Source: Lysobacter alkalisoli (GTDB lineage: Bacteria; Pseudomonadota; Gammaproteobacteria; Xanthomonadales; Xanthomonadaceae). Taken from it: 64,000 bases of DNA. Positions within the stretch are counted from its first letter, which is position 1. The number at the start of each line of letters is the position of its first letter. The stretch covers positions 3,110,001 to 3,174,000 of the forward strand of contig NZ_CP041242.1 of assembly GCF_006547045.1 (NCBI RefSeq). The letters are read 5' to 3'. The notes below the pieces were generated by a model. It was given only the letters and a program-made list of their open reading frames with translations. It was not told where the DNA came from and did no database searches. This document shows, one piece after another, positions 1,927 to 21,638 of the stretch. The position numbers and the translations under genes are program-made.

Positions 1927-2864
1927 TCGACAAGTGTTCCTGTTCCGGCATGCAGTGCCTGGGCCTTCTGCCACAATTTCCCGACCCCATCTCCGAAGGG
2001 TAGCCTGCAACTCCATCCGGTCGCATTCGCGAAACGGCTGCTGTCCAGAACAATGGCCGGCACATCGTATGTCCTGCCTGGCAGGTACTTGGCATCCAGC
2101 GCTCTACCCGACGCCTCTCGGATCGCGTCGATCACTTGATTGATGCTCGTCCCGACGCCGCTACCTATGTTGTATGCACCAGAACGGAGGACTTCCGAAG
2201 TCAGAGCCGCATGGAAAGCCGAAACCACGTCTTCGATCGCGATGTAGTCCCGCACCACGCTGCCATCGCCCCAGACTTCCGGGCTTCTTCCGGCCATCAC
2301 TTCTGAAACGTAGCGCGCGATAACGCCAATTGTCGCGCCTCCCAGTTGATAGGCGCCATATGGGTTGGCCACGCGCAAGCTGATGCCCTCAAGCCCGGAG
2401 TAAAGCGCTAGGTAGTTCTCGATGGCGAGCTTGGAAACGCCATAAGCACTCAGGGGAAGAGTCGGGTCGGTTTCGACTACGGGCAGGCGCTGCGGCGCGC
2501 CATAGACGGTCCCGCCGCTGGAGGCGAACACGACCCGGCGCACGCCTGCCTTAACCGACGCATCGAACAGCCTGATACTGGGTGCGATGTTGGATTCCGC
2601 ATCCCAAGCGATGCTCTCCATGGAATGAGCCGGGTTGGTGGTGCATGCGAGATGCACCAATGCGTCCGCGCCTTCAAACAGGGCCTCCGCATTCCGATCC
2701 ATGGTGAAGTCGAACGTGGCCGTCGCGATGTCTCGCAGCGTTTCATTGGCCTTGGCCAGGCGTGTCGCGGTATCTAGTACCAGCGGCCGCAGACCTTTCG
2801 CCAAAAGCGACTGCGCGAGCGCAGAGCCGATAAAACCTGCACCACCTACGATCACGACACGCAT
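1923..2864 (-). CDS. NAD-dependent sugar epimerase/dehydratase (extended SDR, GalE-like)
   Basis: 313 residues, the normal length for the family. The Rossmann motif GGAGFIGSAL is at residues 7-16, SSGGTVYG precedes the catalytic segment, and YGVSKLAIE supplies the Tyr-x-x-x-Lys pair. Such enzymes interconvert nucleotide sugars such as UDP-Glc/UDP-Gal or UDP-GlcNAc/UDP-GalNAc in the cytoplasm. It overlaps the preceding 1303-codon gene by 13 bp and the following sulfotransferase by 4 bp, so it is embedded in the coupled glycan operon. The exact nucleotide-sugar substrate cannot be read from the sequence. Confidence 0.85.
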   Translation of the reverse strand: MRVVIVGGAGFIGSALAQSLLAKGLRPLVLDTATRLAKANETLRDIATATFDFTMDRNAEALFEGADALVHLACTTNPAHSMESIAWDAESNIAPSIRLFDASVKAGVRRVVFASSGGTVYGAPQRLPVVETDPTLPLSAYGVSKLAIENYLALYSGLEGISLRVANPYGAYQLGGATIGVIARYVSEVMAGRSPEVWGDGSVVRDYIAIEDVVSAFHAALTSEVLRSGAYNIGSGVGTSINQVIDAIREASGRALDAKYLPGRTYDVPAIVLDSSRFANATGWSCRLPFGDGVGKLWQKAQALHAGTGTLVE

Positions 2865-5800
2865 TGGGCCACCTCGATCCTGCGCCCGACATAAAGCGGC
2901 GCACTGTCGTACCGGACCACGCGACTCGAAAATCGCACCTGCTCCAGGCTATGCAGGCCACAAGCGCCCTTCAACAACCCGGGAACGTCGATTGCATGCT
3001 TTTGGCGCACGAGCAGTATGCCATCGCTGGCGAGAATCCGGTCCAGCTCCTTGAGTACCGGGCCATCGGAATCGGTACCATCGAGCACATCATCAAGGTA
3101 CGCGACCTTGATCGAGCCGGCTCGGAATTCCAGTGCGCCCTTCTGCGCCAGTCGGCTGCGGAGCTCAGCGCCGCTCATCATCTGTCCCTGGAACTGCTTC
3201 TTCCAGATGTCAGTCATGGCATCTCCGACGTTCACACCCAACGCGGTCAGGCGCCTGTAAGTGAGCATGGACTCGGCCAAGTACCGGTACAGGGTCCGAT
3301 CGACGGGTGTGGAGCCACAGGCACTGCAGCACCTGAGATCATTGCGCAGTTCGAACGCATCTCCATGCCAGCCACAGACATTGCAATGCGCCGCCTGCCT
3401 CCCTGCTATGCGATCGAGCAGTGGCAAGTCCTCGAGCATCGGCGGGTGCGTCGCCGCGATCGATTCATCGATGCGCGAGAACAGATCCGGACGGGTCTTG
3501 TTGAACAGGGCAAGCAATCGCGGTGGCGTCCCCAGCTTCCAGCCTTCGCTCTCAGCGTAATAGCTGTATTCGACATCGGTATAGCTATGCGGGACGCTGT
3601 TGCTGAATCCACCAATGGCGTCGTACATGGCACGACGAATGACGAAGAAGCCACCCTGCACATGACTGAAGCGCCGTTCGGGATTGTCTTTCGCGAACTG
3701 CTTGTTTCGGAACTTGTCGAAGAGAGGAATGGCCTCCGGATACCTGGCTCCGGTGAGATAGCTTGGCGAATAACATTGCGTACCAGCCAAGCCAACATCT
3801 GGATTGGCATCCATGTAGTCAATCAGGCTCTTCTCCCACCCATAGTCGAGTACAAATCCTTCTTTGCCGCATACGTACACTGCATAATCGGAGTTGCCGT
3901 GCTGCAGGCAGATATTGGTACCCGGCCCAACATAGGCGTTTTCGCGATTGAATATGATGCTGGTGTTGTCATGCTTGGCGTGTACGTCGCACAAGAACGC
4001 CGCAACATCGGGCGCGCTTCCGTTATCGCAGACCAATAGATGAAAAGGCAGCCGCGTGAACTTCTGCAGGCGCCCGATCACTTCGCGAAGTTGCGGCAAG
4101 TTGTTCCAGCTGACGATCATCACGTCGATCGTCCGGCGCTGCCACAACCTCAGCAATGCAGAAGTCAGCCGCGTGGCGTTGAAGTCGCGCCTGATCAGGG
4201 CCTTGGCATCTTCGATGATGCCCCGTACCTGCGTATCAGACATTGCATAGAAGCGCCGCACGGACTCGGCGATCGAAGCCGACGTCGCCTCACAGACAAT
4301 GCCCGTGATTTCATCCTGTACCAGATCGGGGATGCCCGAAATGTCAGTGGTGATTACCGGCATGCCGCTGGCCATCGCCTCCATAAGAACCGTCGGGATG
4401 CCATCCATGTCGCCATCTGCGGCGCGTACCGATGGGCATGCGAACAAGTCATGTTCACGGAACACTGCGAGCATCTCGTCGCGAGACTTTATCGGGCCAT
4501 GGATGAACACATTGTCCAAGCCATCTTCGTCGATCAGCTTGCGATAGGTTTCTTCGAGATCACCATAACCGTACAGATGGATGGAAATACCTTCGACAGC
4601 CAACAACTTGCCAGCGCGAATCAGGTGCTCGAGCCCCTTCTTCTCGGTGAAGCGATGCACCGCGCATACGCTTCGCCTGGCTCGCGTCGCGCGCTCGACA
4701 TCCTCACTGCCAACGTAGAGTTCCGGGTCGATTCCGTTGGGGTTGATCAACAACTTCTCGGCCGGCACGCCGCGAGCTTCGACGTAGTCCCGGTGGAAGC
4801 GCGACGGGACCAGCACCCGCAGGCACCAGGGTGACCTTCCAATCTCTCCTATCCGGTTCTTCTCATCATTACGGTAGCGGAATATGTCCTGGGCATGGGC
4901 GATAAAGGTGAAGGGCACTTTGGCCGTTTCGCATGCTGGCCAGACCATCTCCGTCACGGTCGGATAGGTGAAATGCGAATGCACGATCTGGCGTCCACTT
5001 TCCATCAGCTTTCGAGCCAGATCATCCGCATCCTCGACGCGCGTCCATTCGATCGGGAAGTCTGGCTTGAACTCCTTGTACGGCGACTGGCGGCAGAACA
5101 CGAGTACGTCGTGCCCTTGTGCGACCAGGATGCGAAGCTCGTTGAGGACGAAAGTCTCCGAAGGTACCGGGAAGTGCCACATGAAATATGCGATGCGCAT
5201 CGGTTGCTGCGCGTCCGTGGCCGCGGCAAGGTCGCGTGCCGGCAGGACCAATCTTGGCACTGACCCTTCGTCTGCGTGCCTGAATACTTTCTCGTACGCA
5301 TCCTTCATGTGTGCAGCGTACTTCGATTTTCCGTACACAGCCGTTGCGCGCTTCCGACCGGCCTCGCCCATAGCCCGGAGAGCATCTCTATCCAGGCACA
5401 ACTCCTTCACTTTGTCCGCGACTGCTGAAACATCCCTGTACGGGACAACATGACCGGTGATGCCGGGCACCACCAATTCCCCAAGCGCGCCCCAGTCGTA
5501 CACAACCACTGCACGGCCCGCGGCCATCGCTTCTACCACCGACCTTCCAAAAGACTCCTGGAAGTGCGAGAGGTTGAGCAGGATGTCAATCTCCGACATC
5601 GCTTGGACCGGGTCCGCGCGGTAACCCGCCAGGACGATATTGCCCGGCATCTCACCCGTCTCCTGCTGCGCTTCCAGTGCGCGCGTATGTTCGTTTTGTG
5701 GCCCGATGAGAAGAAAGCGGGCATTTGGAACTTCATCTTCAAGCAATCGCGCAACCGCAACGAAGTCGAGGATTCCCTTCTTCGGCAAGTTGCTGCTCAC

Positions 5801-6763
5801 CATTCCGACATTGACGACTTCATCGTGCGTGGCCTGCACGGAAGCAAACGCAGCGGCATCGACGGTATTGGGAATTACGAAAGTCGCTTCCCGCTTGGGG
5901 AACGCCTGCGCAGTTGCTTCGGAATTGGCCACGACCCAGTCCGCTGACCCAAGTACTTCCGCAGTGATCTGCTCTGGCGTCTGCCCGAGCAGGTCATAGA
6001 GGGCAACGTCATGCGCGATAAGTTCCCGCACGTGCACGATTGCCGGAATGCCGACACGACGGGCGGCGATCAGCGGCTCGCGCAGCATGATGGTGTTGGC
6101 GTGGACAGCGTCGACGCCGTGATCGGCGATGACACGAGCAAAATCGGCAATGCTGCGCTCATCCAGTGGATTGTTGTCTCGCCACCACCGGTAACGGAAC
6201 GATACGACGCTGACGCAACGGTCACGCAGCGCATCGAGGTACTCCAGGTTGCCAATACCCGGGGTTGTAGCAACGGCGTTATAACCCGCGCTCTGCAATC
6301 CATCCAGGATGTCAAGAAGGCTGCGTTCGCCGCCGAACAGGTGCTTGCCCGCGACATGGGCACATACAAGAATCGTGCGCGCGCCCTCGATCTGCGGCAA
6401 GCGACCCGGAAACTCCCGGTACGTCCCTTGGACACGCTGGCGGCGATTGTCCTCCATGGGCGCCGCAGTGCGTTGATCCGAAGAAGTTGGCGGAATGCAT
6501 CGCCTGCCCTCGCTCCTCCCATAACGAAGGAAGTGAACCAGCGGATTCATTCCCGACCTGACGACGTCGTTGTTTGAAGATAAATAATAGGCCGTATGAA
6601 ATGCCGGTCCGGGATCGCGCAGCAACCGCGCACCGATCCTGAGGTAATGCTCTGCTCCATCCATGCCCAGGATGGCCACATCCGGATATCGAGCCAGGTA
6701 CCACTCACTGTTAAAAAGATCCGTGCCGTGGACCGCGGCCAAATCCGGCTTGCGAATACTCAT
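2852..6763 (-). CDS. Giant four-part glycosyltransferase: repeats + GT4 + GT4 + GT2 + zinc-ribbon/methyltransferase-like tail
   Basis: 1303 residues. Residues 15-88 hold two WYLxRYPDV/YYLxxNxDV repeats also found in neighbouring proteins. Residues about 128-495 are a GT-B (GT4) domain with the donor-site block FQESFGRSVVEAMAAGRAVV. Residues 520-875 are a second GT4 domain with GIPTVLMEAMASGMPVI. Residues 878-1100 are a GT-A (GT2) domain beginning VMIVSWNN with VCDNGS. The tail (1115-1303) has two CxxC knuckles (CNVC, CSAC) followed by a Rossmann-like segment resembling class I methyltransferases. It probably adds several sugars to a surface glycan. The start overlaps the upstream stop as ATGA. 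Domain boundaries are estimates; the tail assignment is the weakest. Confidence 0.85.
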   Translation of the reverse strand: MSIRKPDLAAVHGTDLFNSEWYLARYPDVAILGMDGAEHYLRIGARLLRDPGPAFHTAYYLSSNNDVVRSGMNPLVHFLRYGRSEGRRCIPPTSSDQRTAAPMEDNRRQRVQGTYREFPGRLPQIEGARTILVCAHVAGKHLFGGERSLLDILDGLQSAGYNAVATTPGIGNLEYLDALRDRCVSVVSFRYRWWRDNNPLDERSIADFARVIADHGVDAVHANTIMLREPLIAARRVGIPAIVHVRELIAHDVALYDLLGQTPEQITAEVLGSADWVVANSEATAQAFPKREATFVIPNTVDAAAFASVQATHDEVVNVGMVSSNLPKKGILDFVAVARLLEDEVPNARFLLIGPQNEHTRALEAQQETGEMPGNIVLAGYRADPVQAMSEIDILLNLSHFQESFGRSVVEAMAAGRAVVVYDWGALGELVVPGITGHVVPYRDVSAVADKVKELCLDRDALRAMGEAGRKRATAVYGKSKYAAHMKDAYEKVFRHADEGSVPRLVLPARDLAAATDAQQPMRIAYFMWHFPVPSETFVLNELRILVAQGHDVLVFCRQSPYKEFKPDFPIEWTRVEDADDLARKLMESGRQIVHSHFTYPTVTEMVWPACETAKVPFTFIAHAQDIFRYRNDEKNRIGEIGRSPWCLRVLVPSRFHRDYVEARGVPAEKLLINPNGIDPELYVGSEDVERATRARRSVCAVHRFTEKKGLEHLIRAGKLLAVEGISIHLYGYGDLEETYRKLIDEDGLDNVFIHGPIKSRDEMLAVFREHDLFACPSVRAADGDMDGIPTVLMEAMASGMPVITTDISGIPDLVQDEITGIVCEATSASIAESVRRFYAMSDTQVRGIIEDAKALIRRDFNATRLTSALLRLWQRRTIDVMIVSWNNLPQLREVIGRLQKFTRLPFHLLVCDNGSAPDVAAFLCDVHAKHDNTSIIFNRENAYVGPGTNICLQHGNSDYAVYVCGKEGFVLDYGWEKSLIDYMDANPDVGLAGTQCYSPSYLTGARYPEAIPLFDKFRNKQFAKDNPERRFSHVQGGFFVIRRAMYDAIGGFSNSVPHSYTDVEYSYYAESEGWKLGTPPRLLALFNKTRPDLFSRIDESIAATHPPMLEDLPLLDRIAGRQAAHCNVCGWHGDAFELRNDLRCCSACGSTPVDRTLYRYLAESMLTYRRLTALGVNVGDAMTDIWKKQFQGQMMSGAELRSRLAQKGALEFRAGSIKVAYLDDVLDGTDSDGPVLKELDRILASDGILLVRQKHAIDVPGLLKGACGLHSLEQVRFSSRVVRYDSAPLYVGRRIEVAQCVS

Positions 6764-8802
6764 CGTTCTGTCATCACCCTATCTCTCCCGGACGCGATTC
6801 GACCCTCTTGTCGCCCATGCTCGATGTAGTGGAGCAATGGATTGACACCGGCGTGGCGAACATCCGGGTAACGGGCAAGGTAGGACAACGTCTCGAAGCC
6901 GGGGCCGGGATCGAACCCGAGAAGGGCGCCGTGGACCAGGTAGTGTTCTATGGGTTCCAGGCCACTTTCACGAACCTCCGGATAGCGGGAGAGGTACCAT
7001 TCCTCGTCGAAAATTCCGGAGTCGCGCAACTTGCCTTCCTGCTCCACCTGACGTGCACGCGGCGCAAGTGACTGCTCGGCCTCGGAATGAACGCCGCCCC
7101 GCCCCAGACTCTTGCGTAGCTTCCAGAGCCGGCTACCGACGATCTTTTCCAGGTGTGCCCGGTACTCGGAAGACAACTGCCTTTCGGCTGCCGACTCGGC
7201 CGCCAGGCGGTACTCCGACAGAATGGCGCCTCTCCTTGATTCCTCCAAGGCATGAAGCGCCTTCTGTTCTCGCTCGACCGCCTTGTCGCGTTCACTGCTG
7301 ATCGCGCGGCGTTTGGTTTCGGCATCGGAAAGCAACTTGTCCTTGGTTGCAACCGCCTTCTCCAGGTCCAGGACCATCCGCGTCAGCTTGGCTGTTTCCT
7401 GGAAGCGTGCCTCGATTGTTTCTTCACATTCACGCAACTTGTCGCGAAGTTCGGCAAGATCCCGCGCCTGGGCCTCACCGGACGCTTCCGCAGTCGTCAG
7501 CGCATGCTGCGTGGCCACCAGTTCTTTCGTCTGCGCAAGAACCTCGTCGGCCAGCTTGGCATACTTGGACGACAGGCCTTCGCAGGCTGCCGTCTTCTCC
7601 GCCAACAGGGCGCTCGTCCGAGACAGCGCTTCCTTGTGTTCGCGGATCAGGTTGGCCTGCATCCGCTCATGCCCTGACTGGAGGCTTTCGATCGCAGTGG
7701 CCAGCGCAGAGATTTCATCTCGTTGCTTTGCGAGAGCGTCCTGGCCCTGTGCGTGCCCCTGCACCACTTCCTCGTGCTTGCCAGACAGGTCCTGCAGCTC
7801 CCTGGTTCTCTCCGCAAGACGTGTCTTCACGTCCGCGTATAGGCCCTCGACACGTGTTTCGTGCTCCCGCACTACTGCCGCGTAAACACCCGAGGTGCGA
7901 TCGAACTCGTTGCGAATCCGATCCAGGGTTTCCCTGTCCGCCTGCGATTCCTTTGCTCCATCGGCAAGACCGTCCAGGATGCGGTGGGCCGTCCCAATCC
8001 AGTCCGACAACTCCATACTTGCAGCGACCGGCGTGCCCGTAGAATGATGATGGCGCAGCTCGGCAGACAGGAAGTCCGCGATAAGAGCCTCCGTGTCGCT
8101 CGACATCTTCGGCCACTTGAGATCAAGGTCCGTGGCGATCTTTCCGGCCACATTCTTCCAGTTGTCAAGTAGTTGGTCGTAGCCGACAAAGGTGCGCGTC
8201 ACGGTACGCGAACTGGCCTCGGCATCCAGCATGTGCCGGAGCCATAGCAGGTACGAGCGATCACGGCCAAAATGGTCACGCAGCTCCAGAGACCTCGCGA
8301 CATCAAGCGGATGCCTGACCGGGATGATCGCTTGGGCGGTAATCTTGAGTTTCTTGAGCACCTCGAGCCAGAACGGAAAGAAGCGGCATATCCGCGGGTC
8401 CTTGATCAGGATCAGCGGATGGTCGCCGAACTCCCGCTCAACCAGTGGTTCGACCAGCTCTTGAAACTTGACAGCAATCTCCGTATCGGCCCAGTCCGGG
8501 TTGAATGGGCCCCAGTCGTTCCACCGACTTCCCGCAGCCCTCAACATCTGGTCGTGCGCCTGCATCAATGCCGACGACTCCCAATAGCCGCGGGGATTGG
8601 CTGCGGTGGGCTCCATGAGCGACTTGGGCGGCTGGGCGCCTAGCTTGGCAAGCACGCCGCCAAGTGCGGAAGTTCCAGAGCGGTGCATTCCGAGCACGAA
8701 CAGTGCCCGCCGCCCAGTCAGACGTCGCTTCGAAGTCGCCACTCTGATCCTCTGTTTGTCACAACGCCAACAACGAAGGTGTTCATTGGGCCTGCTCGGC
8801 AA
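6760..8802 (-). CDS. Sulfotransferase domain fused to long coiled coil and two C-terminal WYLxRYP repeats
   Basis: 680 residues. LGMHRSGTSALGGVLAKLG at about 37-55 is a PAPS-type P-loop, and IIPVRHPLDVARSLELRDHF fits the 3'-phosphate site, so residues 30-260 look like a sulfotransferase. Residues about 285-560 are charged, alanine-rich heptad-like sequence, a probable coiled coil. Residues 594-675 contain two copies of the cluster-wide repeat (IFDEEWYLSRYPEV and LSYLARYPDV). Long coiled coils in O-antigen proteins such as WbdD act as length rulers; a comparable role here is inference. The start is uncertain: about 28 residues precede the conserved core and include a CWRC pair. It is coupled by ATGA to the next gene. 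Confidence 0.78.
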   Translation of the reverse strand: MPSRPNEHLRCWRCDKQRIRVATSKRRLTGRRALFVLGMHRSGTSALGGVLAKLGAQPPKSLMEPTAANPRGYWESSALMQAHDQMLRAAGSRWNDWGPFNPDWADTEIAVKFQELVEPLVEREFGDHPLILIKDPRICRFFPFWLEVLKKLKITAQAIIPVRHPLDVARSLELRDHFGRDRSYLLWLRHMLDAEASSRTVTRTFVGYDQLLDNWKNVAGKIATDLDLKWPKMSSDTEALIADFLSAELRHHHSTGTPVAASMELSDWIGTAHRILDGLADGAKESQADRETLDRIRNEFDRTSGVYAAVVREHETRVEGLYADVKTRLAERTRELQDLSGKHEEVVQGHAQGQDALAKQRDEISALATAIESLQSGHERMQANLIREHKEALSRTSALLAEKTAACEGLSSKYAKLADEVLAQTKELVATQHALTTAEASGEAQARDLAELRDKLRECEETIEARFQETAKLTRMVLDLEKAVATKDKLLSDAETKRRAISSERDKAVEREQKALHALEESRRGAILSEYRLAAESAAERQLSSEYRAHLEKIVGSRLWKLRKSLGRGGVHSEAEQSLAPRARQVEQEGKLRDSGIFDEEWYLSRYPEVRESGLEPIEHYLVHGALLGFDPGPGFETLSYLARYPDVRHAGVNPLLHYIEHGRQEGRIASGRDRVMTER

Positions 8803-8876
8803 TGACCGGCCTGTCCAGCATGGAAGGGCGAATTCTAACCCATCCCAGGTCTAGGCAGCATCGTACGGCGGCCCAG

Positions 8877-10784
8877 TTATCGAGGCCCGTTCAACATCAG
8901 CCCACGGTAAATATCGACATACTGCCCAGCCATCGCGGCCGTGCTATCGCTTCGCCCATGGGTGATTTGCCAGCGGCGGACGTTACCGGCCTTGAGCACA
9001 CGTTCCGGCGTGGATTCACGGATGGCAACAAGTGCCTCAATCAGAGCCTGCGCGCTCGCCGGCGGCTGAAGCAGCCAGCCCCCCTCGTGTCGACCGATGC
9101 GCTCACCAACAGCCCCAAGCTCGATGCCCAGGACAGGGACCCCGCAAGACCAGCATTCCGTCAGGGTATGGCACCAGGTTTCTGGCCAGATGGACAGCAC
9201 GGCGGCGATATGCGGCCTGATCGCTGCCACCCGCTCGGCAAACTCTTCCCTCTCATACGGCCCATGATCGACCACGTGGCTGGCCAATCCAGGTCCAGCC
9301 TTGCCCAGCAGGTGAAACTCGAACTTCCCCGACGTATCCAGCTCCTTTGCTTGCTTGACCAGTTCCAATCCCTTCTGGAGGCCGATGTTTCCGGGCAGCA
9401 GGATGCGCAAGGGTTCACCTTGCCCGATGTCCGACAGGTCGGCCATCTGTGTGAATCGCTCGAAGTCCCGGCCGTGCGGAATGATGTGAAAATCCGATGA
9501 GCGTTGCACAAGCAGGGGGAGTGCGTTGGCGAGAATTTCCTTGGCGCTCGTGCTGGTGGTGATGTAGGCATCGCAACCTCCCAGCATTCCCTGCATGCGC
9601 TGTTTCCAATGCGCGAGCCAGGCCTCGTTCATTCCCGTATCGGTGGGATCGTTACGCCACAACGGATTGCGCGCACCTTCGGTCACGCCGGTCGAATGAT
9701 AGCTACCGTCTTCTCCAACCAAGGTGACGGAGGGGCAGATGGAATAAAAATCGTGAAAGGAATGGACGACAGGGATATCCAGACTCTTTGCCACGTCAAC
9801 CAGGTTCAGGCTGTGCCATGCGACATGACGGATGTGCAGCAGATCGATTCCCCAATCTACGAGGATACGGCGGACTATATCGTCGTACTCACTGCTGACA
9901 TGAGTGGCGAAGCGGACAGGCTCAGACAACGGATAGCGTTCGAGGGTCCTGTAATCGCTTCGGCCCACCTGCATGACCTCGACGCAATGGCGGTTGCACC
10001 ATAGTGCATAGCAGTCGTAGTCGCCGGCGACCGCACGCATCAGATCGGCGTTCGTTTGTGGCGTGCCTCCGACGCGGGTGGAAATCACGTACATGATGCG
10101 CGGCTTCGGCTTGCACCCACTCCGCGTCGCCCAATCCAGCTTGCGGGCGATCCGGTACCGGGCCAACTCGAAGTCGCGCGACAACGCGAGCGCGCGCTTG
10201 GCACCCGCAAGCTCCGGACACGCCCCCTCGACGCAGGCCTCGACCGAGACCTTCGGCTCATCGGACGGTTGCGAACCGGACTTGCCCACGTAGGTTGCAG
10301 GATCGACGCGATGACACCACCCGACCATCAACGCACGCATGCAGAACTCGTCTTCTCCCATGCCGCCTAAGGGTGATGCCCTGACATCGAACATGCCGAT
10401 ATCGTCGATCAAGGCGCGTTTCACATACAGGCAGAAGCCACCACCGATGGGCACCTCGAATGGCGTGCGGATCCGACAATCGGAAACGATCCTGGCCAAT
10501 GCTTCGACGTCGAGCCCTTCGGGCGCTTCATTGAGCCCTGGGCGCGGCACGGAGTACGCGCCTGCATTGTTGGAGACAGGCGTCACCGTTCCAGTGCGAT
10601 CCGTGCGATATGCCGCAATCTTGAGGTTGCGCAACCAATGTGGCCCAACCACCGTATCGCTTCCGAGAAGGACTACGTCATCGCTGCCGGCCAGCTCGCA
10701 AGCCATGTTGATGCTCCGGCTACGGCCCAGCCTCGACGAATTCCGAATCACATCGACACCGGGATTCTTGGCAAGGCGCAGCAA
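8877..10784 (-). CDS. Downstream part of a frameshifted glycosyltransferase: rest of GT2 domain plus GT4 domain
   Basis: This open frame begins at a TTG and encodes 635 residues. Residues 1-190 are the middle and end of a GT-A fold (VLLGSDTVVGPHWL gives the DxD-like site; GGMGEDEFCMRA follows). Residues about 228-620 are a GT-B domain (PRIMYVISTRVGG, VVHSFHDFYSICPS, LTECWSCGVPVLG). The GT2 beginning lies in the other frame, in the gene fragment at 10748-11689. The break coincides with a run of eight C, so the two pieces are almost certainly one gene of about 937 codons. Whether this fragment is translated alone is doubtful: the TTG lies mid-domain and I see no good ribosome site. Confidence 0.7.
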   Translation of the reverse strand: MLRLAKNPGVDVIRNSSRLGRSRSINMACELAGSDDVVLLGSDTVVGPHWLRNLKIAAYRTDRTGTVTPVSNNAGAYSVPRPGLNEAPEGLDVEALARIVSDCRIRTPFEVPIGGGFCLYVKRALIDDIGMFDVRASPLGGMGEDEFCMRALMVGWCHRVDPATYVGKSGSQPSDEPKVSVEACVEGACPELAGAKRALALSRDFELARYRIARKLDWATRSGCKPKPRIMYVISTRVGGTPQTNADLMRAVAGDYDCYALWCNRHCVEVMQVGRSDYRTLERYPLSEPVRFATHVSSEYDDIVRRILVDWGIDLLHIRHVAWHSLNLVDVAKSLDIPVVHSFHDFYSICPSVTLVGEDGSYHSTGVTEGARNPLWRNDPTDTGMNEAWLAHWKQRMQGMLGGCDAYITTSTSAKEILANALPLLVQRSSDFHIIPHGRDFERFTQMADLSDIGQGEPLRILLPGNIGLQKGLELVKQAKELDTSGKFEFHLLGKAGPGLASHVVDHGPYEREEFAERVAAIRPHIAAVLSIWPETWCHTLTECWSCGVPVLGIELGAVGERIGRHEGGWLLQPPASAQALIEALVAIRESTPERVLKAGNVRRWQITHGRSDSTAAMAGQYVDIYRGLMLNGPR

Positions 10785-11689
10785 CTCCTCATCAAGATCA
10801 TGCCCCCCCCAGAATCAACGACGACCAGCAACCGATTCGTCGCTCCGAGCGGCGTATGCCGGAGGACGCTATGGATGCTATCGAGCACTCCAGGGCCTGC
10901 GCTGGCCACCGGGACGATCACGGCTACCCGCACTGCACGGCAATCGATGATCCTGCCTGCAGACGCATGTGCGCCGGTGGCATGATGCGTCTCCCTTCCT
11001 TCCAGCACGCCCCTTGCCAGGTAGTGCTCCAATGGAGTCAGCCCCGATCGGGCCACATCGTCATACCTCGATGAATAGAATCCGCCGTCGAAAAATGCCG
11101 ATGTCCTGGTCATGCGGCTATCCGGACTCCGCAAATAGTGGACCAGCGGATTCGTGGCATCGTCGGGAGACTGGTAGGTGGCCCGATACATGCGGGTGGA
11201 GAACCAAGGGTTCGGCTGGCGCCCCTCCTTTGCACCGTACTTGACGTAATGCAACAGCGGATCGATGCCGTGCCTTGCGACATCCGGGTTGGCCTCAAGG
11301 TAGTAACTGCGATCGAACAGCAGACTCTCGCGCAGGACATCCATGTTGCCCTCGGCGCCTCCGCCTTCCTGTCCAGCCGTACTCGCATCGTCCCCCACCG
11401 GCTGTGAGTCCAGCACCGGAATGCACGTCCGACCTTCATGCCGCCCGAACGCAAGATAATGGACGAGCGGATTCATCCCTGCAGCAGCCACATCGGGATT
11501 GCTCTTCAGGTAGTCCCGGGCGCTGAATCCAGGGCCAGGATCGCGCAGCATGGCGCCTCCCATCCGGACATAGTGCTCCGCCGCGCTGACCCCAAGATGC
11601 CCAACATCGGGGTACCGCTGCATATACCACTGTGAGTCAAGGAGCCGCGATGATTCTACCAGCGCAATGTCGTCGGCGAGCAGGCGCAT
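10748..11689 (-). CDS. Upstream part of the same frameshifted glycosyltransferase: five repeats plus start of GT2 domain
   Basis: 313 codons. Residues about 15-235 carry five degenerate repeats (SQWYMQRYPDV, RDYLKSNPDV, RSYYLEANPDV, a shortened copy, GGFYSSRYDDV), each followed by a PLxHYL block. Residues from 254 (RVAVIVPVASAGPGVLDSI) start a GT2 domain, which then runs out of frame after VVVDSGGG. Restoring one G to the G8 run (minus strand) reads on as HDLDEELLRLAKNPG and joins the 8877-10784 frame without a gap. It is either a pseudogene, a phase-variable gene, or one with a sequencing indel at the homopolymer. Confidence 0.7.
   Translation of the reverse strand: MRLLADDIALVESSRLLDSQWYMQRYPDVGHLGVSAAEHYVRMGGAMLRDPGPGFSARDYLKSNPDVAAAGMNPLVHYLAFGRHEGRTCIPVLDSQPVGDDASTAGQEGGGAEGNMDVLRESLLFDRSYYLEANPDVARHGIDPLLHYVKYGAKEGRQPNPWFSTRMYRATYQSPDDATNPLVHYLRSPDSRMTRTSAFFDGGFYSSRYDDVARSGLTPLEHYLARGVLEGRETHHATGAHASAGRIIDCRAVRVAVIVPVASAGPGVLDSIHSVLRHTPLGATNRLLVVVDSGGGMILMRSCCALPRIPVSM
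10803..10810 (-). other. C8/G8 homopolymer at the frame switch of the glycosyltransferase
   Basis: Eight consecutive C on the plus strand (G8 in the coding sense). A tract of 9 G (or 6) would put the two open frames of the 8877-11689 gene in register; 8 does not. Such tracts are typical both of slipped-strand phase variation in glycan genes and of assembly indels. Confidence 0.75.
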
Positions 11690-11746
11690 TGGACAATCCC
11701 GTTCTACACTCCATCCAGAATACGGGGCACAGCTGACGGTTCCATT

Positions 11747-12145
11747 TCAGCGCGCCGCGGAAAGCAAGGTCTGCTTGATCGACGTGCTCGAAATATCCTC
11801 TGTGCGCGGCAGGTAGATCACCTCACAGTAATCGCCCAGGAAGTCGAACTCCCCTTTCCAGTCATCACCAATGACAAAGGCGTCTACTGCATACTTCTTC
11901 ACGTCGGAGACCTTCTGCTCCCATGTCTCCTCCGCAATCACGAGGTCAACATGCCGTATGGCCTCCAGCACCACCTTCCTGTTGCCGTAGTCAAGCAAGG
12001 AAGCCTTGTGTTTCTTGGCGTTGAAAGCATCTGTGGAAAGCCCGACGATCAAACGGTCTCCCAGTTCGCGCGCGCGTCGCAGCAAGTTGATGTGGCCAAC
12101 ATGCAGGATGTCGAAGGTTCCATAGGTAATGATGGTCCGCATCAT
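11747..12145 (-). CDS. tagD: Glycerol-3-phosphate cytidylyltransferase (TagD type)
   Basis: 132 residues, the normal size for TagD. The nucleotidyltransferase signature GTFDILHVGH is at residues 9-18, and RTEDISSTSIK near the C-terminus matches the family's RTxGISTTxI block. The reaction makes CDP-glycerol from CTP and glycerol 3-phosphate in the cytoplasm. The ATG at 12145 overlaps the stop of the upstream CDP-glycerol-transferase-like gene (ATGA), so donor synthesis and donor use are coupled. Related members use other alcohol phosphates (for example ribitol, or ethanolamine-like substrates), so glycerol is the likeliest but not the only reading. Confidence 0.85.
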   Translation of the reverse strand: MMRTIITYGTFDILHVGHINLLRRARELGDRLIVGLSTDAFNAKKHKASLLDYGNRKVVLEAIRHVDLVIAEETWEQKVSDVKKYAVDAFVIGDDWKGEFDFLGDYCEVIYLPRTEDISSTSIKQTLLSAAR

Positions 12146-14871
12146 AGTCTCCAGTCCGTCTCAACGTCGTCGCGGACGTAGAGCTGCCTGACCCTCTTGG
12201 CGACCCGCCAGGCATTCCCGTCGTCAATGTGATCGAAGAACAACTTTCGCTTCCAGCCGTAGCTCTCCATCTCCAGCTCATCGCGCGGCGTGAAGACCCT
12301 TTCCAGGGCGGTCATGAGCTGCGGGAAGTCCCGACATACGGGCCCCGGGAACACATGCTCCATGTCATAGAAAAGCCCGCGCTCCGCATTCGCATAACTG
12401 TCATGATCGTATGCAAAGCTGATCATGGGGCGCTCAGTCAGCATGAAATCAATGAAACAGCTTGAATAGTCGGTGATCAATGCACTGGCCAACCGGTACA
12501 GCATCTCGACATCGGGGAACCTGCGGTCCGACAGATCGATGGTGTCGACGCCACGCAACTGGCTGTAATAGTTCCGGGCCTGGTCGGCCATGTGCTCTCG
12601 CACCCCAAGCACCGCATTGTTGTCACCCAGCCATGCATGCAGATGGGCAAGCTCGCTTGGAGAGAAACGATAATAGGCATCCTGCTGGTCGGCCTTGAAG
12701 GTGGGCACGAAGAGGATCAAGCGGCGCCCCGCACACAAGTCCTTCAACCGCTCGTACTGCACTCGCAGGTCGCTTGGCAGCTGATCGAAGTCGCGCACGA
12801 TGAAATCGTTTCGCGGCAGGCCTGTGCACCACACCTTGTTGTAGCTCAGTGGATAGAACGCAGATGCCATGGCCATGCTGTCGATCTTCGACGAACTGAT
12901 CACCGCCCGGCATTTTGCGTGTTCCCCACCAATCGCCCTGAGCTTGTCCTGCATGTCAAGGGACGCATAGCCGATGCGCTTCAGCGGGACGCCATGCCAC
13001 AAGTTGATCAGGTTGTGCAGCGAAGACGAAACAGGAAACACGAGGTTGCGGCTGGGGCTGTGCTTGATGAAGATCTGTCGGGCACGCAGCAGGTGGTATT
13101 GACCCTCCGGGCTGCGCAGCGGAACCACGGTTACGTTCTCGCCATCAATTTCAATGTTCTTGCCGCGTGTCAGCACGACCTTCTTGATTGAAGGGTCGCT
13201 GCGCACTTCCTCGAACAAGGCACGTTCGTTGCCCGCGAACGTGTTGTTGAACGCACAGGCCGGAAATGCCCACCAATGATCGAACTTCGGCGTTTCCTGG
13301 TCCGCCTTCTTGAACTCCTCGTCATTCAGCATCTTTGGCACGACTACCTGCCCGCGGGCATCTTCCACGATCCGGAAGCTGCGAATCAGCTTGTCATGGT
13401 CCGAGACCCTCCACAGATTGCGCTCCATCATGTCGACGTCCGCATCGGGGACCAGATTGCGTATCGTCTTCTTCCAACCGGCCAGTCCCGGCGTGTCGTA
13501 GTGGTTCTCGGAAAGGAAGTAGCGCTTGAGGAACGGATAGCCATCCCTGATCAAGTCGAAGTGATAGCGCGTGTAGATTGGATGGAAGGGATAGAGCCGG
13601 TCGATGAATGTATCGAACGCAAATTGCTTGCCGATCAGATAATGAGTGAAGCCGATCTCGTATTTCTGGATTATGCGGAGTTTGGATTTCTGAGGACGTA
13701 CGGCATCGAGCAGGCGACGAAAACCGGCGTCCTGTACCACGGGTTGCCGGTAGACCACAAAATAAGAACCGACATGGAAGTCGTAGAGGTAATCGTCCTC
13801 GTAGCCATCGACAAGCCGCGTCTTCACCTCATTGAGTGGAATGGGCTGTGAGAACTGGTTGGACGGGTTGTCGCGGGTTCGTGCCAACCCCTTCGTGGCC
13901 TGCATCCCCCACCAGTCGCAGGCCTTGTCGTCCATCCTTGCGAAGACCGATCCAAGCTCACTCAACAGATAGCTGCTGTCATTGACCAACAGCAGCTCGT
14001 CATACCTTTCGATGAGATCCCAACCCACGTAATCCCTGGCCAGTGCCGACCATGAGCCAAAGTCATAGGCACCGTGGCGATGGGCCCAACAGCCCTTGGT
14101 GTACGGTCGCAGCTTGTCCAGCTCGCCATCCTGCATGGCGCAGTCGGCCAGGTAATACACATCGGCGTAGCGGCTCAGCTCGCGCAGGAAGGTCACTACA
14201 TAGTCGTCGACAATGCCATCCGGGTCGTAGCCAGCGAACAGACAGATGCGGCGCACCTGTGCTCCTGGTCGATGGGCGTGGCCAGCTCCCGGGACATAAG
14301 GCTTCGGGTGTTCTCGATAACCGGCGACCTGCCCAATCAGCGCGTAATGCACCAGTGGATTGATGACTTCGCGCGCGGGATCCAGATAGGTCACCCAATA
14401 CCACCAGACATCGAAACCAGGCCGAGGCCTGCGCAGATCCCGCCAGCCGTACCGGCAGAAGTGGTACAGCGGATCGACGCCCTTGGCGGCCACATCCGGG
14501 TTGTGGTCCAGGTAGTAGTTCGCATCGAACAGGCCACTGGCCGCGATCAGGTCGATTTCGGCCTGCAGTTGCGGGTCGTCGTCAGCTGGCAAGTCAGTTG
14601 CCTGGGAGGACGGGATAACCTTCCTCTGGTTGAGCCCGTCGAGGAACGGGTTAGGCGCGATGCCCTGGCGCACCCCGAAAGTCAGGTAGTGGCGCAGCGG
14701 GTCGGCATCGCCGGCAGCGGCTTCCGGACAGCGCTCCAGATACCAGTCCCGATCGAACCACCCGGACCGCTGCAGGAACGCTTTGCATGCCAGGATGACC
14801 CCGGCGCCTTCGGGCGAATGCGCCTTCATCGGAACGGCGCGTTCAGCGTCGATGATGTCCCCGGCACTCAT
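12142..14871 (-). CDS. Large transferase: repeats + rhamnan-synthesis F (RgpF) domain + CDP-glycerol glycerophosphotransferase (TagB/TagF) domain
   Basis: 909 residues. Residues about 30-185 contain three cluster repeats (RDWYLERCPEA, ANYYLDHNPDV, and a shortened copy with NPLVHYAL). Residues about 205-540 resemble RgpF-type glycosyltransferases (RRICLFAGYDPDGIVDDYV, DELLLVNDSSYLL). Residues about 550-905 have TagB/TagF hallmarks, LINLWHGVPLKRIGYAS and ITDYSSCFIDFMLTERP. It probably adds a sugar and then glycerol phosphate to a surface glycan. The ATG at 14871 overlaps the previous stop (ATGA); codons upstream lie inside that gene. The following tagD supplies the donor. Confidence 0.85.
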   Translation of the reverse strand: MSAGDIIDAERAVPMKAHSPEGAGVILACKAFLQRSGWFDRDWYLERCPEAAAGDADPLRHYLTFGVRQGIAPNPFLDGLNQRKVIPSSQATDLPADDDPQLQAEIDLIAASGLFDANYYLDHNPDVAAKGVDPLYHFCRYGWRDLRRPRPGFDVWWYWVTYLDPAREVINPLVHYALIGQVAGYREHPKPYVPGAGHAHRPGAQVRRICLFAGYDPDGIVDDYVVTFLRELSRYADVYYLADCAMQDGELDKLRPYTKGCWAHRHGAYDFGSWSALARDYVGWDLIERYDELLLVNDSSYLLSELGSVFARMDDKACDWWGMQATKGLARTRDNPSNQFSQPIPLNEVKTRLVDGYEDDYLYDFHVGSYFVVYRQPVVQDAGFRRLLDAVRPQKSKLRIIQKYEIGFTHYLIGKQFAFDTFIDRLYPFHPIYTRYHFDLIRDGYPFLKRYFLSENHYDTPGLAGWKKTIRNLVPDADVDMMERNLWRVSDHDKLIRSFRIVEDARGQVVVPKMLNDEEFKKADQETPKFDHWWAFPACAFNNTFAGNERALFEEVRSDPSIKKVVLTRGKNIEIDGENVTVVPLRSPEGQYHLLRARQIFIKHSPSRNLVFPVSSSLHNLINLWHGVPLKRIGYASLDMQDKLRAIGGEHAKCRAVISSSKIDSMAMASAFYPLSYNKVWCTGLPRNDFIVRDFDQLPSDLRVQYERLKDLCAGRRLILFVPTFKADQQDAYYRFSPSELAHLHAWLGDNNAVLGVREHMADQARNYYSQLRGVDTIDLSDRRFPDVEMLYRLASALITDYSSCFIDFMLTERPMISFAYDHDSYANAERGLFYDMEHVFPGPVCRDFPQLMTALERVFTPRDELEMESYGWKRKLFFDHIDDGNAWRVAKRVRQLYVRDDVETDWRL

Positions 14872-15440
14872 GCCGGCGACTTCAGCTGCGACTGCAGGTA
14901 GTGGACGAGCGGATTGACCCCGGACTGCTCGCACTCGGGGTGTTGTGCGAGGTAGTCGCGCGTGCTGAATTCTGGACCCGGATCCCGGCCCTCGCGCGCG
15001 CCGCACAGGAGGTAGTGGGTGGCGGGGCTGATACCCGCCGACACCACATCGGCGTTCTGCTTCAAGTACCACGCTGCCTGGAACAGCGACGACGACTCGA
15101 TCAGGCGCGTGTGCTCAGCTTCCGCCAGGGCGGCCGTCGACCGCCATCTCTGGAGCAGGCTGCGCAACCACGGCCATCGCGAAATCAGGAACCGACGCCA
15201 GGTAATTGGGCTGCGGGGTTCATGCATTTCCCAGTAGGCACGCGAGAGGTGCTCGGCCAAGCCTTCAGCTAGGTACGTCGAGACTACTTCCACGCTGGTG
15301 CTTTCGGCGCGCCACTGGCTACACTGCTCCATCAGCGGTTCCTGCATCTGACGTACCTGCGCGAGCTCGCGCTGACAAAGCAGCAGCGCCTCGGAAAGCT
15401 TGAGATTTTCGCGTTGCACTGTATCGATTGTCGGTAGCAC
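14868..15440 (-). CDS. Small coiled-coil protein with two WYL-type repeats, function unknown
   Basis: 190 residues from a GTG at 15440, which has AGGAG six to seven bases upstream; this is better supported than the start at 15500. Residues about 5-60 are a probable short coiled coil (RENLKLSEALLLCQREL). Residues 70-110 are basic and aromatic. Residues about 118-185 hold two cluster repeats (QAAWYLKQNADV and TRDYLAQHPEC, the second ending NPLVHYLQSQ). No enzymatic motif is visible. Because the only recognisable part is the repeat also found in its enzyme neighbours, it could be an adaptor holding them together, but that is inference. Confidence 0.65.
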   Translation of the reverse strand: MLPTIDTVQRENLKLSEALLLCQRELAQVRQMQEPLMEQCSQWRAESTSVEVVSTYLAEGLAEHLSRAYWEMHEPRSPITWRRFLISRWPWLRSLLQRWRSTAALAEAEHTRLIESSSLFQAAWYLKQNADVVSAGISPATHYLLCGAREGRDPGPEFSTRDYLAQHPECEQSGVNPLVHYLQSQLKSPA

Positions 15441-15539
15441 TGGTTTCTCCTGCCGTGGTCGCACCGGCCGCTCATGATCGCCGCCATGTCGCCCAACCAC
15501 ACGTTAGCCTTCAGGACTCATCGGGGAGCACTACGCCCT

Positions 15540-19558: not shown

Positions 19559-19618
19559 TGTTGCAGGGATTTTCCTTGAGTGTGCTGGCATCCCCAAGGG
19601 AGTCCGCACGGTTGTCTT

Positions 19619-20767
19619 TTACGAACTTGAGCGCAGGGTTTCAATCACCGCTGGTGCCATGCGCAATTCCGCATCGACCAGTTCCGGGTTTGCACCGCCG
19701 AGTACCCGCACATTGCGGCCCAGCTCCGACGGCTGTGACACCCCGGGCACTGCCACGACCGCAAGGAAGCCGCACATGTCGTTGCTCAGACCAAAATGTT
19801 TCACCACGTCCGGCCGCCGACACCATCTGAGATCACTTGTGGTGTACAGGTGCCCATCCCGCTCCAAGGCTAACCCGGCGGGAACCGCGCCGTCGGTATC
19901 GACCATCCAGCCCTTGAGCACGAACTGCCCGGGTTTTTTCGCCGGACGGATCTCCTCGATGGCGCCATAGACATGCGCACCATCGGCCGGCGCCTCGATC
20001 ATGGCCTGCCGCTCCGCACGCAACCGGGCCAGCAGATCGTGGTAGCACTTGAGCGACGAGGTGATGTCACCCGCATGCACGAGCCGGCCACCTTCAAGCA
20101 CGATGCCCTTGTTGCAGATGTCGCGCAGCAGGCCGACGCTGTGGCTGGCCAGCACCACGATCTTGCTGCCGCTCACCCGCCCTCGCATGCGCTCCCTGGC
20201 CTTGGCCATGAAGTCGGCGTCACCGGTGCCAACCCACTCGTCCATCAGCATGATGTCATGCTGGACCGAGGTCGATATGGCGAAGCCCAATCGCAGCCTC
20301 TGCCCGGAAGACAGCGTGCGCAGGCGGTGGCCGACCTTGTGCTGCAAACCGGCGAATTCGAGGATGGACTCAACTTGATCGCGCAGGAACGAGGATTTCA
20401 GCCCCATGGCCACGCCGCGCAGGAAGATGTTCTCGCGCACGGTGGCCTCGCCATTGAAACCCAGCGACATGTTCAACAGGGCCTGGCAGCTGCCCTGTAT
20501 TTCCAGTTGCCCGCGGGTGGGCTGATAAACGCGGTTCAACACCCGCAGCAGTGTGCTCTTGCCGGCCCCATTGCGACCTAGGATCGCCAGGCGATCGCCT
20601 TCGCGGACGTCGAGATCGAGGTCTTCCAGCAGGCGGATCGTCCTGCGCCGGGGCGGGTCGAACGCCGCCCCCATGAGCATGCCGGCCCAGCCCGTGGCCT
20701 CACGATCGGGCTGCAGGAAGATCGGTACATCGAGGGTCAGGTTGCGAGCCCGGATATATGCGCTCAT
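19619..20767 (-). CDS. wzt: Polysaccharide ABC exporter ATPase Wzt with C-terminal carbohydrate-binding-type domain
   Basis: 382 residues from the ATG at 20767, four bases after the permease stop. Residues 1-245 form the nucleotide-binding domain: Walker A GRNGAGKSTLL, signature LSSGQRLRLGFAIS, Walker B IMLMDEWVGTGD. Residues about 255-380 form an extension that in Wzt proteins binds the finished polysaccharide end. It powers transfer of an undecaprenyl-linked O-antigen or capsule across the inner membrane together with Wzm. The C-terminal extension resembles that of the methyltransferase encoded immediately downstream. Confidence 0.92.
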   Translation of the reverse strand: MSAYIRARNLTLDVPIFLQPDREATGWAGMLMGAAFDPPRRRTIRLLEDLDLDVREGDRLAILGRNGAGKSTLLRVLNRVYQPTRGQLEIQGSCQALLNMSLGFNGEATVRENIFLRGVAMGLKSSFLRDQVESILEFAGLQHKVGHRLRTLSSGQRLRLGFAISTSVQHDIMLMDEWVGTGDADFMAKARERMRGRVSGSKIVVLASHSVGLLRDICNKGIVLEGGRLVHAGDITSSLKCYHDLLARLRAERQAMIEAPADGAHVYGAIEEIRPAKKPGQFVLKGWMVDTDGAVPAGLALERDGHLYTTSDLRWCRRPDVVKHFGLSNDMCGFLAVVAVPGVSQPSELGRNVRVLGGANPELVDAELRMAPAVIETLRSSS

Positions 20768-20771
20768 CGGG

Positions 20772-21638
20772 TCATATCCACAACGGCACATAGCGCGCGT
20801 AGCGCCGGTACAGGAATGTCGCCAAGGTCAGGCCGCCGACGGTCATGATCCCCACATACCAGTACGTGCCCGGCTCGACCGGCTCGCCGAGGATCGGGTT
20901 GCGGAACATTTCCACGAAATGGAAGAACGGGTTGAAGCGCATCAACTGCCCCCTGATGCTTTCGGGCGGCATCATTTCCGGATACCAGATGATTGGCGTC
21001 AACAGGAACATGAAAATCGACACATTGCCGAGCAACTGCCCGAAATCCGGCAGCCGCGCACCGATCACCGCGAACACGGCTGCCATCCACAATGCATTCA
21101 CATAGAGCAAAAATAGCGTGGGCACGGCCAGCAGCAGGCCCAGCGGGTTGATGTCCCCCGCCAGCCAAAGTGCAAATGCAACCACCGGCACGTACATGCA
21201 GAAGTCGAAGAATGCCTTTGCCAGCGCCTGCAGCAAGTAGTCGGTCAGACGCATGTGGCCGTCCATGATGAAAGCCCGGCTGCCAACGAACACATTGGCA
21301 CTGCCGATGATCGTCGACATCAGCGTGCGGAACATCATCGCCCCCAGCGCCACATGCGCGTAATACTCGCCGGACGAGGCGCCGGCCCTGAGCCCGCGCA
21401 TGCTCATGAAAAACGTACCGAGCCCAAACACGTACACGACCGCGGGCGCCATCAACCAGAAGATGCCGAGCCGCGACTTGCGCGCGCGCACGATGATGTC
21501 GAGCCAGCTCGACAGCGCCCAGAAATCGGGGTGGCGGAAACTTTCGGTCAGTTCGCGCCAGAAGTATCCCGGAGCGCCGGTGCCGCGGGCGTCTGCGCGG
21601 ATGGAAACCTCATTGCTGCTGTCGATGGATTCGTTCAC
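20772..21638 (-). CDS. wzm: Polysaccharide ABC exporter permease Wzm (ABC-2 type)
   Basis: 288 residues with about six hydrophobic segments (for example LGIFWLMAPAVVYVFGLGTF and the segment around VPVVAFALWLAGD). The cytoplasmic SWLDIIVRARKSRLGIFW near the N-terminus is typical of ABC-2 O-antigen permeases. It forms the transmembrane channel for Wzt-energised export. The GTG start at 21638 overlaps the metB stop as GTGA, so it is translationally coupled to metB. The wzm-wzt pair at the metB edge fits the known organisation of Xanthomonas LPS loci. Confidence 0.92.
   Translation of the reverse strand: MNESIDSSNEVSIRADARGTGAPGYFWRELTESFRHPDFWALSSWLDIIVRARKSRLGIFWLMAPAVVYVFGLGTFFMSMRGLRAGASSGEYYAHVALGAMMFRTLMSTIIGSANVFVGSRAFIMDGHMRLTDYLLQALAKAFFDFCMYVPVVAFALWLAGDINPLGLLLAVPTLFLLYVNALWMAAVFAVIGARLPDFGQLLGNVSIFMFLLTPIIWYPEMMPPESIRGQLMRFNPFFHFVEMFRNPILGEPVEPGTYWYVGIMTVGGLTLATFLYRRYARYVPLWI

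Follow-up and report, generated by a model that had tools for sequence, protein, structure and literature searches.

The glycan cluster and its repeat module

The window analysed here, 64,000 nucleotides of Lysobacter alkalisoli DNA (NCBI RefSeq assembly GCF_006547045.1, contig NZ_CP041242.1, positions 3,110,001 to 3,174,000), holds a glycan cluster in which five neighboring gene products share a repeat module at their ends. Read along the minus strand, the cluster begins with pyridoxal phosphate enzymes (PALP plus CBS; Cys_Met_Meta_PP), the Wzm-type permease and Wzt-type ATPase of an ATP-binding cassette (ABC) exporter, a methyltransferase, and a 175-amino-acid (aa) open reading frame (ORF). 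It continues with a pyruvyltransferase/GT2 ORF, a 190-aa protein, TagF/RgpF, TagD, and a frameshifted glycosyltransferase (GT), and closes with a sulfotransferase/coiled-coil protein (ST680), a 1303-aa GT (GT1303), an epimerase, and a sulfotransferase. With both ABC2_membrane and ABC_tran genes in the window, the cluster is of the ABC-transporter-dependent kind (Table 1).

The initial annotation had described about 14 copies of one repeat in these five proteins, always at a protein end, and both observations hold. Fourteen units of ~38 aa each are distributed over five gene products (six ORFs, one GT being frameshifted), all on the minus strand between 6491 and 15086, and their residue positions place them at the ends of the proteins. 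Profiles trained on four of the proteins and scored on the fifth gave 77.6-197.8 bits, compared with best scores of 2.0-6.0 bits for shuffled controls (200 shuffles per protein). The single-unit repeat first described can be refined, as the usual block is a pair of 76 aa composed of unit A (..WYLxRYPDVxxxG..EHYL..RDPGP) and unit B (..F..YL..NPDVxxxGxNPLVHYL..EGR). Across the loci studied (designated by L numbers), 201 of 317 contiguous arrays contain two units, and neighboring units are set 38 aa apart in 299 of 392 instances; the frameshifted GT has five units in total, within residues 16-236. Module alignments comprised 49 of 50 pairs (A3) or five window rows plus 104 of 123 pairs from the named set, 19 having been omitted by hand (A7), and seven columns are invariant across 49 modules.

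No Pfam or NCBIfam family matched the module in scans of the window proteins. An AlphaFold2 model of the ST680 C-end (109 rows) is almost entirely helix, with a predicted local distance difference test score of 95-98 in blocks 31-110 (mean 86.2) and a predicted template modeling score of 0.72, and the module is a confidently predicted helical domain. A PDB sequence search with the module gave no credible match (a single one at E 0.46), and a Foldseek comparison of the model with PDB gave no fold match (one only, at E 8.3). Tetratricopeptide (TPR), Sel1, and other named helical repeats were considered and dropped, since neither a Pfam/NCBIfam match nor a shared PDB fold was obtained. The motif strings of the module were not found in the literature searched, and no entry that it listed on terminators, coils, and docking named the module.

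Table 1. Positions in the window of the module copies and of the genes that carry or accompany them
Feature	Position	Strand	Remarks
A-B module, N-terminal in GT1303	6491..6718	-	residues 16-91; no Pfam family there
A-B module, C-terminal in ST680	6787..7014	-	residues 597-672 of 680
First A-B module, frameshifted GT	11417..11644	-	residues 16-91 of ORF 10748-11689
Second module, frameshifted GT	11114..11320	-	residues 124-192; B unit degenerate
Single unit, frameshifted GT	10982..11095	-	residues 199-236
Single unit near N-end of TagF/RgpF	14647..14760	-	residues 105-142 of over-extended 976-aa ORF
A-B module of TagF/RgpF	14305..14532	-	residues 181-256 of over-extended 976-aa ORF
A-B module, C-end of 190/210-aa protein	14871..15086	-	two units, residues 139-210
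GT1303	2852..6763	-	module, two GT4-type and one GT2-type domain; proposed polymerase partner
ST680	6760..8802	-	Sulfotransfer_3 (34-231), proline-free coil (259-580), basic helix, module; proposed terminator/ruler
Frameshifted GT	8877..11689	-	two ORFs (10748-11689, 8877-10784)
TagD-type glycerol-3-phosphate cytidylyltransferase	11747..12145	-	TIGR01518, 182.8 bits, cut-off 165.4
TagF/RgpF protein	12142..14871	-	Glyphos_transf, RgpF; start inferred from ORF reading
190/210-aa coil-plus-module protein	14868..15500	-	directly upstream of TagF/RgpF
ABC exporter ATPase, Wzt type	19619..20791	-	ABC_tran
ABC exporter permease, Wzm type	20772..21638	-	ABC2_membrane

Facing ends, upstream partners, and fusions

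Module-bearing ORFs were assigned to type C when the module lies no more than 35 aa from the end, to type N when the first unit lies no more than 150 aa from the start, and otherwise to type M, yielding 76 C, 115 N, and 41 M in the set of 232. Two couples are present in the window: the C-end module of ST680 faces the N-end module of GT1303 across the gene border, and the C-end module of the 190-aa protein faces the N-end module of TagF/RgpF. Among directly adjacent module genes on the same strand, 24 of 37 cases run C-then-N, with 6.0 expected, the remainder being N-then-C (6), N-then-N (3), C-then-C (1), or involving type M (3). This excess was reached in 0 of 20000 random draws, which ignore relatedness, and the 24 cases are not independent because 14 belong to the window's family, Xanthomonadaceae, in which a C-type ORF is directly followed by an N-type ORF in 14 of 18 cases. 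Before counting, eight loci common to the family and named sets were taken out of the latter. Unit-edge distance was rejected as the adjacency measure, its geometry favoring C-then-N, and gene adjacency was used for the main count instead. Since TagF and TagD also overlap, overlaps of the ATGA kind between genes were given no evidential weight.

The upstream partners are frequently group-transferring enzymes. Ten of the 15 paired C-type proteins that were scanned singly match Sulfotransfer_3 or Methyltransf_24 (L052 and L113 under the Pfam cut-off), and five match neither (the 190-aa protein, L057, L107, L196, and L205); the paired C-types outside the single scans are L059, L060, L063, L064, L065, L135, L188, L213, and L249 (173 aa). 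Short proteins of coil plus module, 166-210 aa in length, make up 6 of the 24 (the window protein, L064, L135, L188, L213, and L249). With proline-free length as a proxy for coil, the longest such stretch before the module measures 131-790 aa in 11 transferase-matching C-type ORFs (the above ten and L058), and 322 aa in ST680. The median was 71 and the 95th percentile 160 in 783 other ORFs, a comparison set chosen by a length of at least 350 aa and thus not representing all genes. Seven ORFs (L163, L048, L172, L228, L249, L127, and L157), six of them bearing the module, have in common a coil motif similar to LLLQLHQVQEELE.

Natural fusions place the module inside single chains. Transferase, module, and GT domains occur together in proteins from E. 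coli (L166), Sneathiella (L202), and Variovorax (L244). The E. coli protein, detected in a single genome out of 5426 of the species, retains two modules and has an ABC exporter and cysD/N/C genes as neighbors. In L051 and L055 one unit lies between the sulfotransferase and the GT/RgpF domains, the L051 transferase being under the cut-off, and a Novosphingobium protein (L169) combines a transferase with the module, with no GT found by Pfam.

One position of the module tends to differ between paired and unpaired N-type copies. Column 32 is L, I, V, or M in 16 of 22 paired N-types, 10 of 62 unpaired N-types, and 5 of 55 C-types. The column was chosen after the family couples had been viewed, and the set outside the family is therefore the fairer test; there it is hydrophobic in 7 of 10 paired versus 7 of 48 unpaired N-types (p=0.0009).

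Capsule alleles of E. coli show how the two faces vary within one species. A methyltransferase-GT block was matched in 17 of 5426 genomes, in 16 of them over 80% of its length, and nine alleles were read, in sets of seven and of eight. Their methyltransferase proteins are 816, 840, 880, or 912 aa long; among seven of them (L167 and L250-L255) the coil differs by 32- and 96-aa gaps, both ends being retained, and the more distant L258 (840 aa) falls outside this set. One 96-bp tandem repeat lies in the coil of the capsule methyltransferase of L253 (1657-1839). Alleles L257 and L251 agree as far as nt ~2481, with differences of 1/750 in the methyltransferase, 3/1590 in the coil, and 3/150 in the linker; past a break located 5-6 codons before the C-module, the C-module differs at 34/249 and the N-unit at 27/150. 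This break is a recombination junction at the start of the C-module. L253 and L254 have the same sequence in both modules and diverge in the GT from codon 233 on, and in L250 the change sets in at codons 42-43 of the GT, within the last part of the N-unit, where the protein is unchanged. The C-module and N-unit were essentially kept together in all three events (L257, L254, and L250). A break in the last 263 bp of the methyltransferase gene is also described for TBA_3 and TBA_7 in the available text of an earlier study (PMC10433991).

Distribution of the module and surroundings of the cluster

Within the 3.86-Mb, single-contig genome of L. alkalisoli, all eight module matches at E 0.1 sit in this cluster. 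Matches were found in at least 28 of 198 genomes of the family, at least 16 of 370 of the class, and at least 68 of 397 sampled from the phylum, all including L. alkalisoli itself and all lower bounds with candidates scored only in part, as well as in 120 plasmid records and in named genomes of other phyla. In 48 ORFs of the family, the Pfam domains found (among 25 of 42 families listed) include Glycos_transf_1 in 21, Glycos_transf_2 in 17, Sulfotransfer_3 in 10, Glyphos_transf and RgpF in 8 each, and Methyltransf_24 in 2; outside the family, where 78 of 80 module ORFs were scanned, GT families are again the commonest hits. A Wzm-like gene lies within the fetched stretch at 22 of 31 family loci, as judged by a profile that was built from the window gene and may miss distant relatives. 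A motif count classed 5 of 230 ORFs as RTX-like. In L115, L116, L223, L230, L232, and L236 the C-end bears three or six units after a repeat-rich stretch, the motif count flagging L116, L223, L230, and L232 and visual judgment the other two. A protein with AMP-binding, carrier, and thioesterase parts (L136, 605-5089) has its module at the C-terminus.

Several features of the window surround these genes. The Sulfotransfer_3 match of ST680 scores 29.3 bits (cut-off 27), and its coil resembles SMC in the NCBIfam scan. At the frameshift site of the interrupted GT, a run of eight G occupies 10803-10810 on the minus strand, for which slippage, phase variation, and sequencing error are all possible explanations. 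The Wzt-type ATPase (390 aa) has O-antigen transport ATPases among its best solved matches; the best PDB matches stop near residue 250-260, beyond which no Pfam hit was obtained. Another C-terminal domain, marked by a GW.D motif, is shared between its residues 276-358 and residues 371-451 of the neighboring methyltransferase at 18173-19609 (BLAST E 6e-8). The ORF at 15584-17062, in which a pyruvyltransferase domain is represented by its end alone and GT2 by a short segment, looks truncated or shifted. The genome yielded one adenylyl sulfate (APS) kinase, which lies 3.2 kb to the left of the window (C1:3106370-3106813; L037 ~14370-14813), a location that fits a local supply of sulfate donor; near it, an SLC13-like gene and a further sulfotransferase-like gene were recognized by eye. 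An EtfB-like gene past the left window edge was likewise recognized by eye, not by family scan. The Cys_Met_Meta_PP gene of the window is presumably metB, and Xanthomonas reportedly has a known metB-etfA lipopolysaccharide locus.

Proposed docking, rival explanations, and known systems

The initial annotation had suggested that the module could dock the enzymes of the cluster into one complex and had asked whether it is confined to glycan-assembly proteins. Docking is the best-supported reading, in a more specific form in which an upstream C-end faces a downstream N-end and single chains uniting the two sides occur, and the data point to two couples instead of one five-protein complex. We regard it as an even call that the A-B pair serves as a helical docking module of glycan assembly, which would hold a terminator or ruler to a polymerase. 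In the first couple, the C-end module of ST680, as terminator/ruler, would hold the N-end module of GT1303, the polymerase; the 190-aa coil protein would hold TagF/RgpF in the same way. GT1303 would extend the chain at the membrane, the coil of ST680 would set the distance, and the sulfotransferase at the far end of the coil would cap sufficiently long chains ahead of ABC export. For ABC-exported surface glycans, coupling of terminator and polymerase helps to decide chain length, according to the available part of a published account (PMC11231755).

A number of results weigh against this docking model. Twelve family couples showed no co-variation between C- and N-modules (r=-0.11, p=0.70), the tree-aware test of column 32 had two supported independent pairs, too few to decide, and the window modules themselves fit the column-32 rule only in a mixed way, ST680 having Leu and TagF having Asp. 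Beyond the family, no more than 10 of 58 C-type ORFs are followed by an N-type module in the next 600 bp, and the same profile detected Wzm-like genes at 15 of 60 and 14 of 72 loci. Among seven partnerless C-type ORFs scanned singly, three have GT2 domains and one has a methyltransferase. Two of six scanned proteins with an internal module are transferase-GT fusions. The L257 junction is one event and two others (L250 and L254) lie elsewhere; co-retention of the two modules in three events is often expected by chance, leaving only the exact L257 position notable. Confinement to glycan-assembly proteins also fails: among 25 of 51 families listed for the 78 ORFs outside the family, RTX repeats occur in two, an M10 peptidase in one (maybe one of those two), and an S8 peptidase, an AMP-binding domain, and bacterial Ig domains in one each. 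Because of these copies, the module is largely, not exclusively, found in glycan proteins.

Such copies are what would be expected if the module bound a glycan, a lipid carrier, or another surface ligand, with each enzyme gripping its substrate singly and secreted proteins sticking to the cell polysaccharide. Ligand binding of this sort, which we think unlikely, would account for the presence of the module both in GTs and in RTX, M10, and S8 proteins and would suit its conserved aromatic and His positions, but it predicts neither the facing ends nor the placement of short coil-plus-module proteins immediately ahead of an N-type gene, nor that N-modules with and without a partner should differ. 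Homotypic self-association or membrane-near packing, producing enzyme dimers or clusters without partner choice, would agree with the likeness of C- and N-modules (identity ~50-51% between types, 54-55% within), with the lack of co-variation, and with the basic, W-containing, helix-like stretch seen by eye before the module in many C-types. That the adjacency is directional, C-then-N, and that the E. coli L257 C-module differs along with the downstream GT make such unselective clustering distinctly improbable.

Facing ends could also be a remnant of the splitting of fused genes and recombination in repeats, the module being a tolerated, non-binding linker. The existence of both fused and split versions is compatible with this history, as are the recombination junctions in the module stretch of E. 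coli. A sequence constrained at its invariant columns, a confidently predicted fold, and proteins consisting of little beyond coil and module all argue against a mere linker, which we hold to be very improbable. Under the docking model, a broader proposal may be entertained tentatively, and with some doubt: the A-B pair could be an undescribed, widely shared docking code, in which matched C- and N-end copies couple cap enzymes or rulers to polymerases, and exchange of module plus polymerase lets new glycans keep an old terminator, as in polyketide lines. If the module is indeed portable, partners could be read from sequence.

In polyketide synthases, docking domains bring the C-end of one protein to face the N-end of the next gene's product. 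The module of the window has the same arrangement, C-end to N-end on adjacent genes, and differs from those docking domains in that no solved relative of it was found by sequence or fold. Single chains such as L166, L202, and L244 resemble, by description, ORF6 of Klebsiella pneumoniae O7 and WbbB of O12, in which terminator, coil, and GT form one protein, and the available parts of these descriptions mention no such repeat module (PMC11231755). The available text on E. coli group 3 capsules likewise notes the methyltransferase gene, the variation in coil length, and the break in the last 263 bp, and names neither the module nor its counterpart in the next gene (PMC10433991, PMC13171606).

A further close parallel is the WbdD-WbdA system of E. 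coli O9a and K. pneumoniae O3, in which, as the accessible accounts report, the C-terminal region of WbdD recruits the polymerase WbdA (PMC3482155, PMC11231755). Unlike WbdD, a methyltransferase-kinase, ST680 is a sulfotransferase, and its C-terminal repeat module is also present on the GT side; at E 0.01, ST680 had no match among PDB sequences, to which the solved WbdD is assumed to belong. Both belong to ABC-transporter pathways and combine a group-transferring enzyme, cap-adding in WbdD and putatively so in ST680, with a long coil and a C-terminal region, a layout realized in ST680 as the sulfotransferase followed by the proline-free stretch and then the module. By analogy, and with no kinship detected, the arrangement in the window would work in the manner of WbdD and WbdA.

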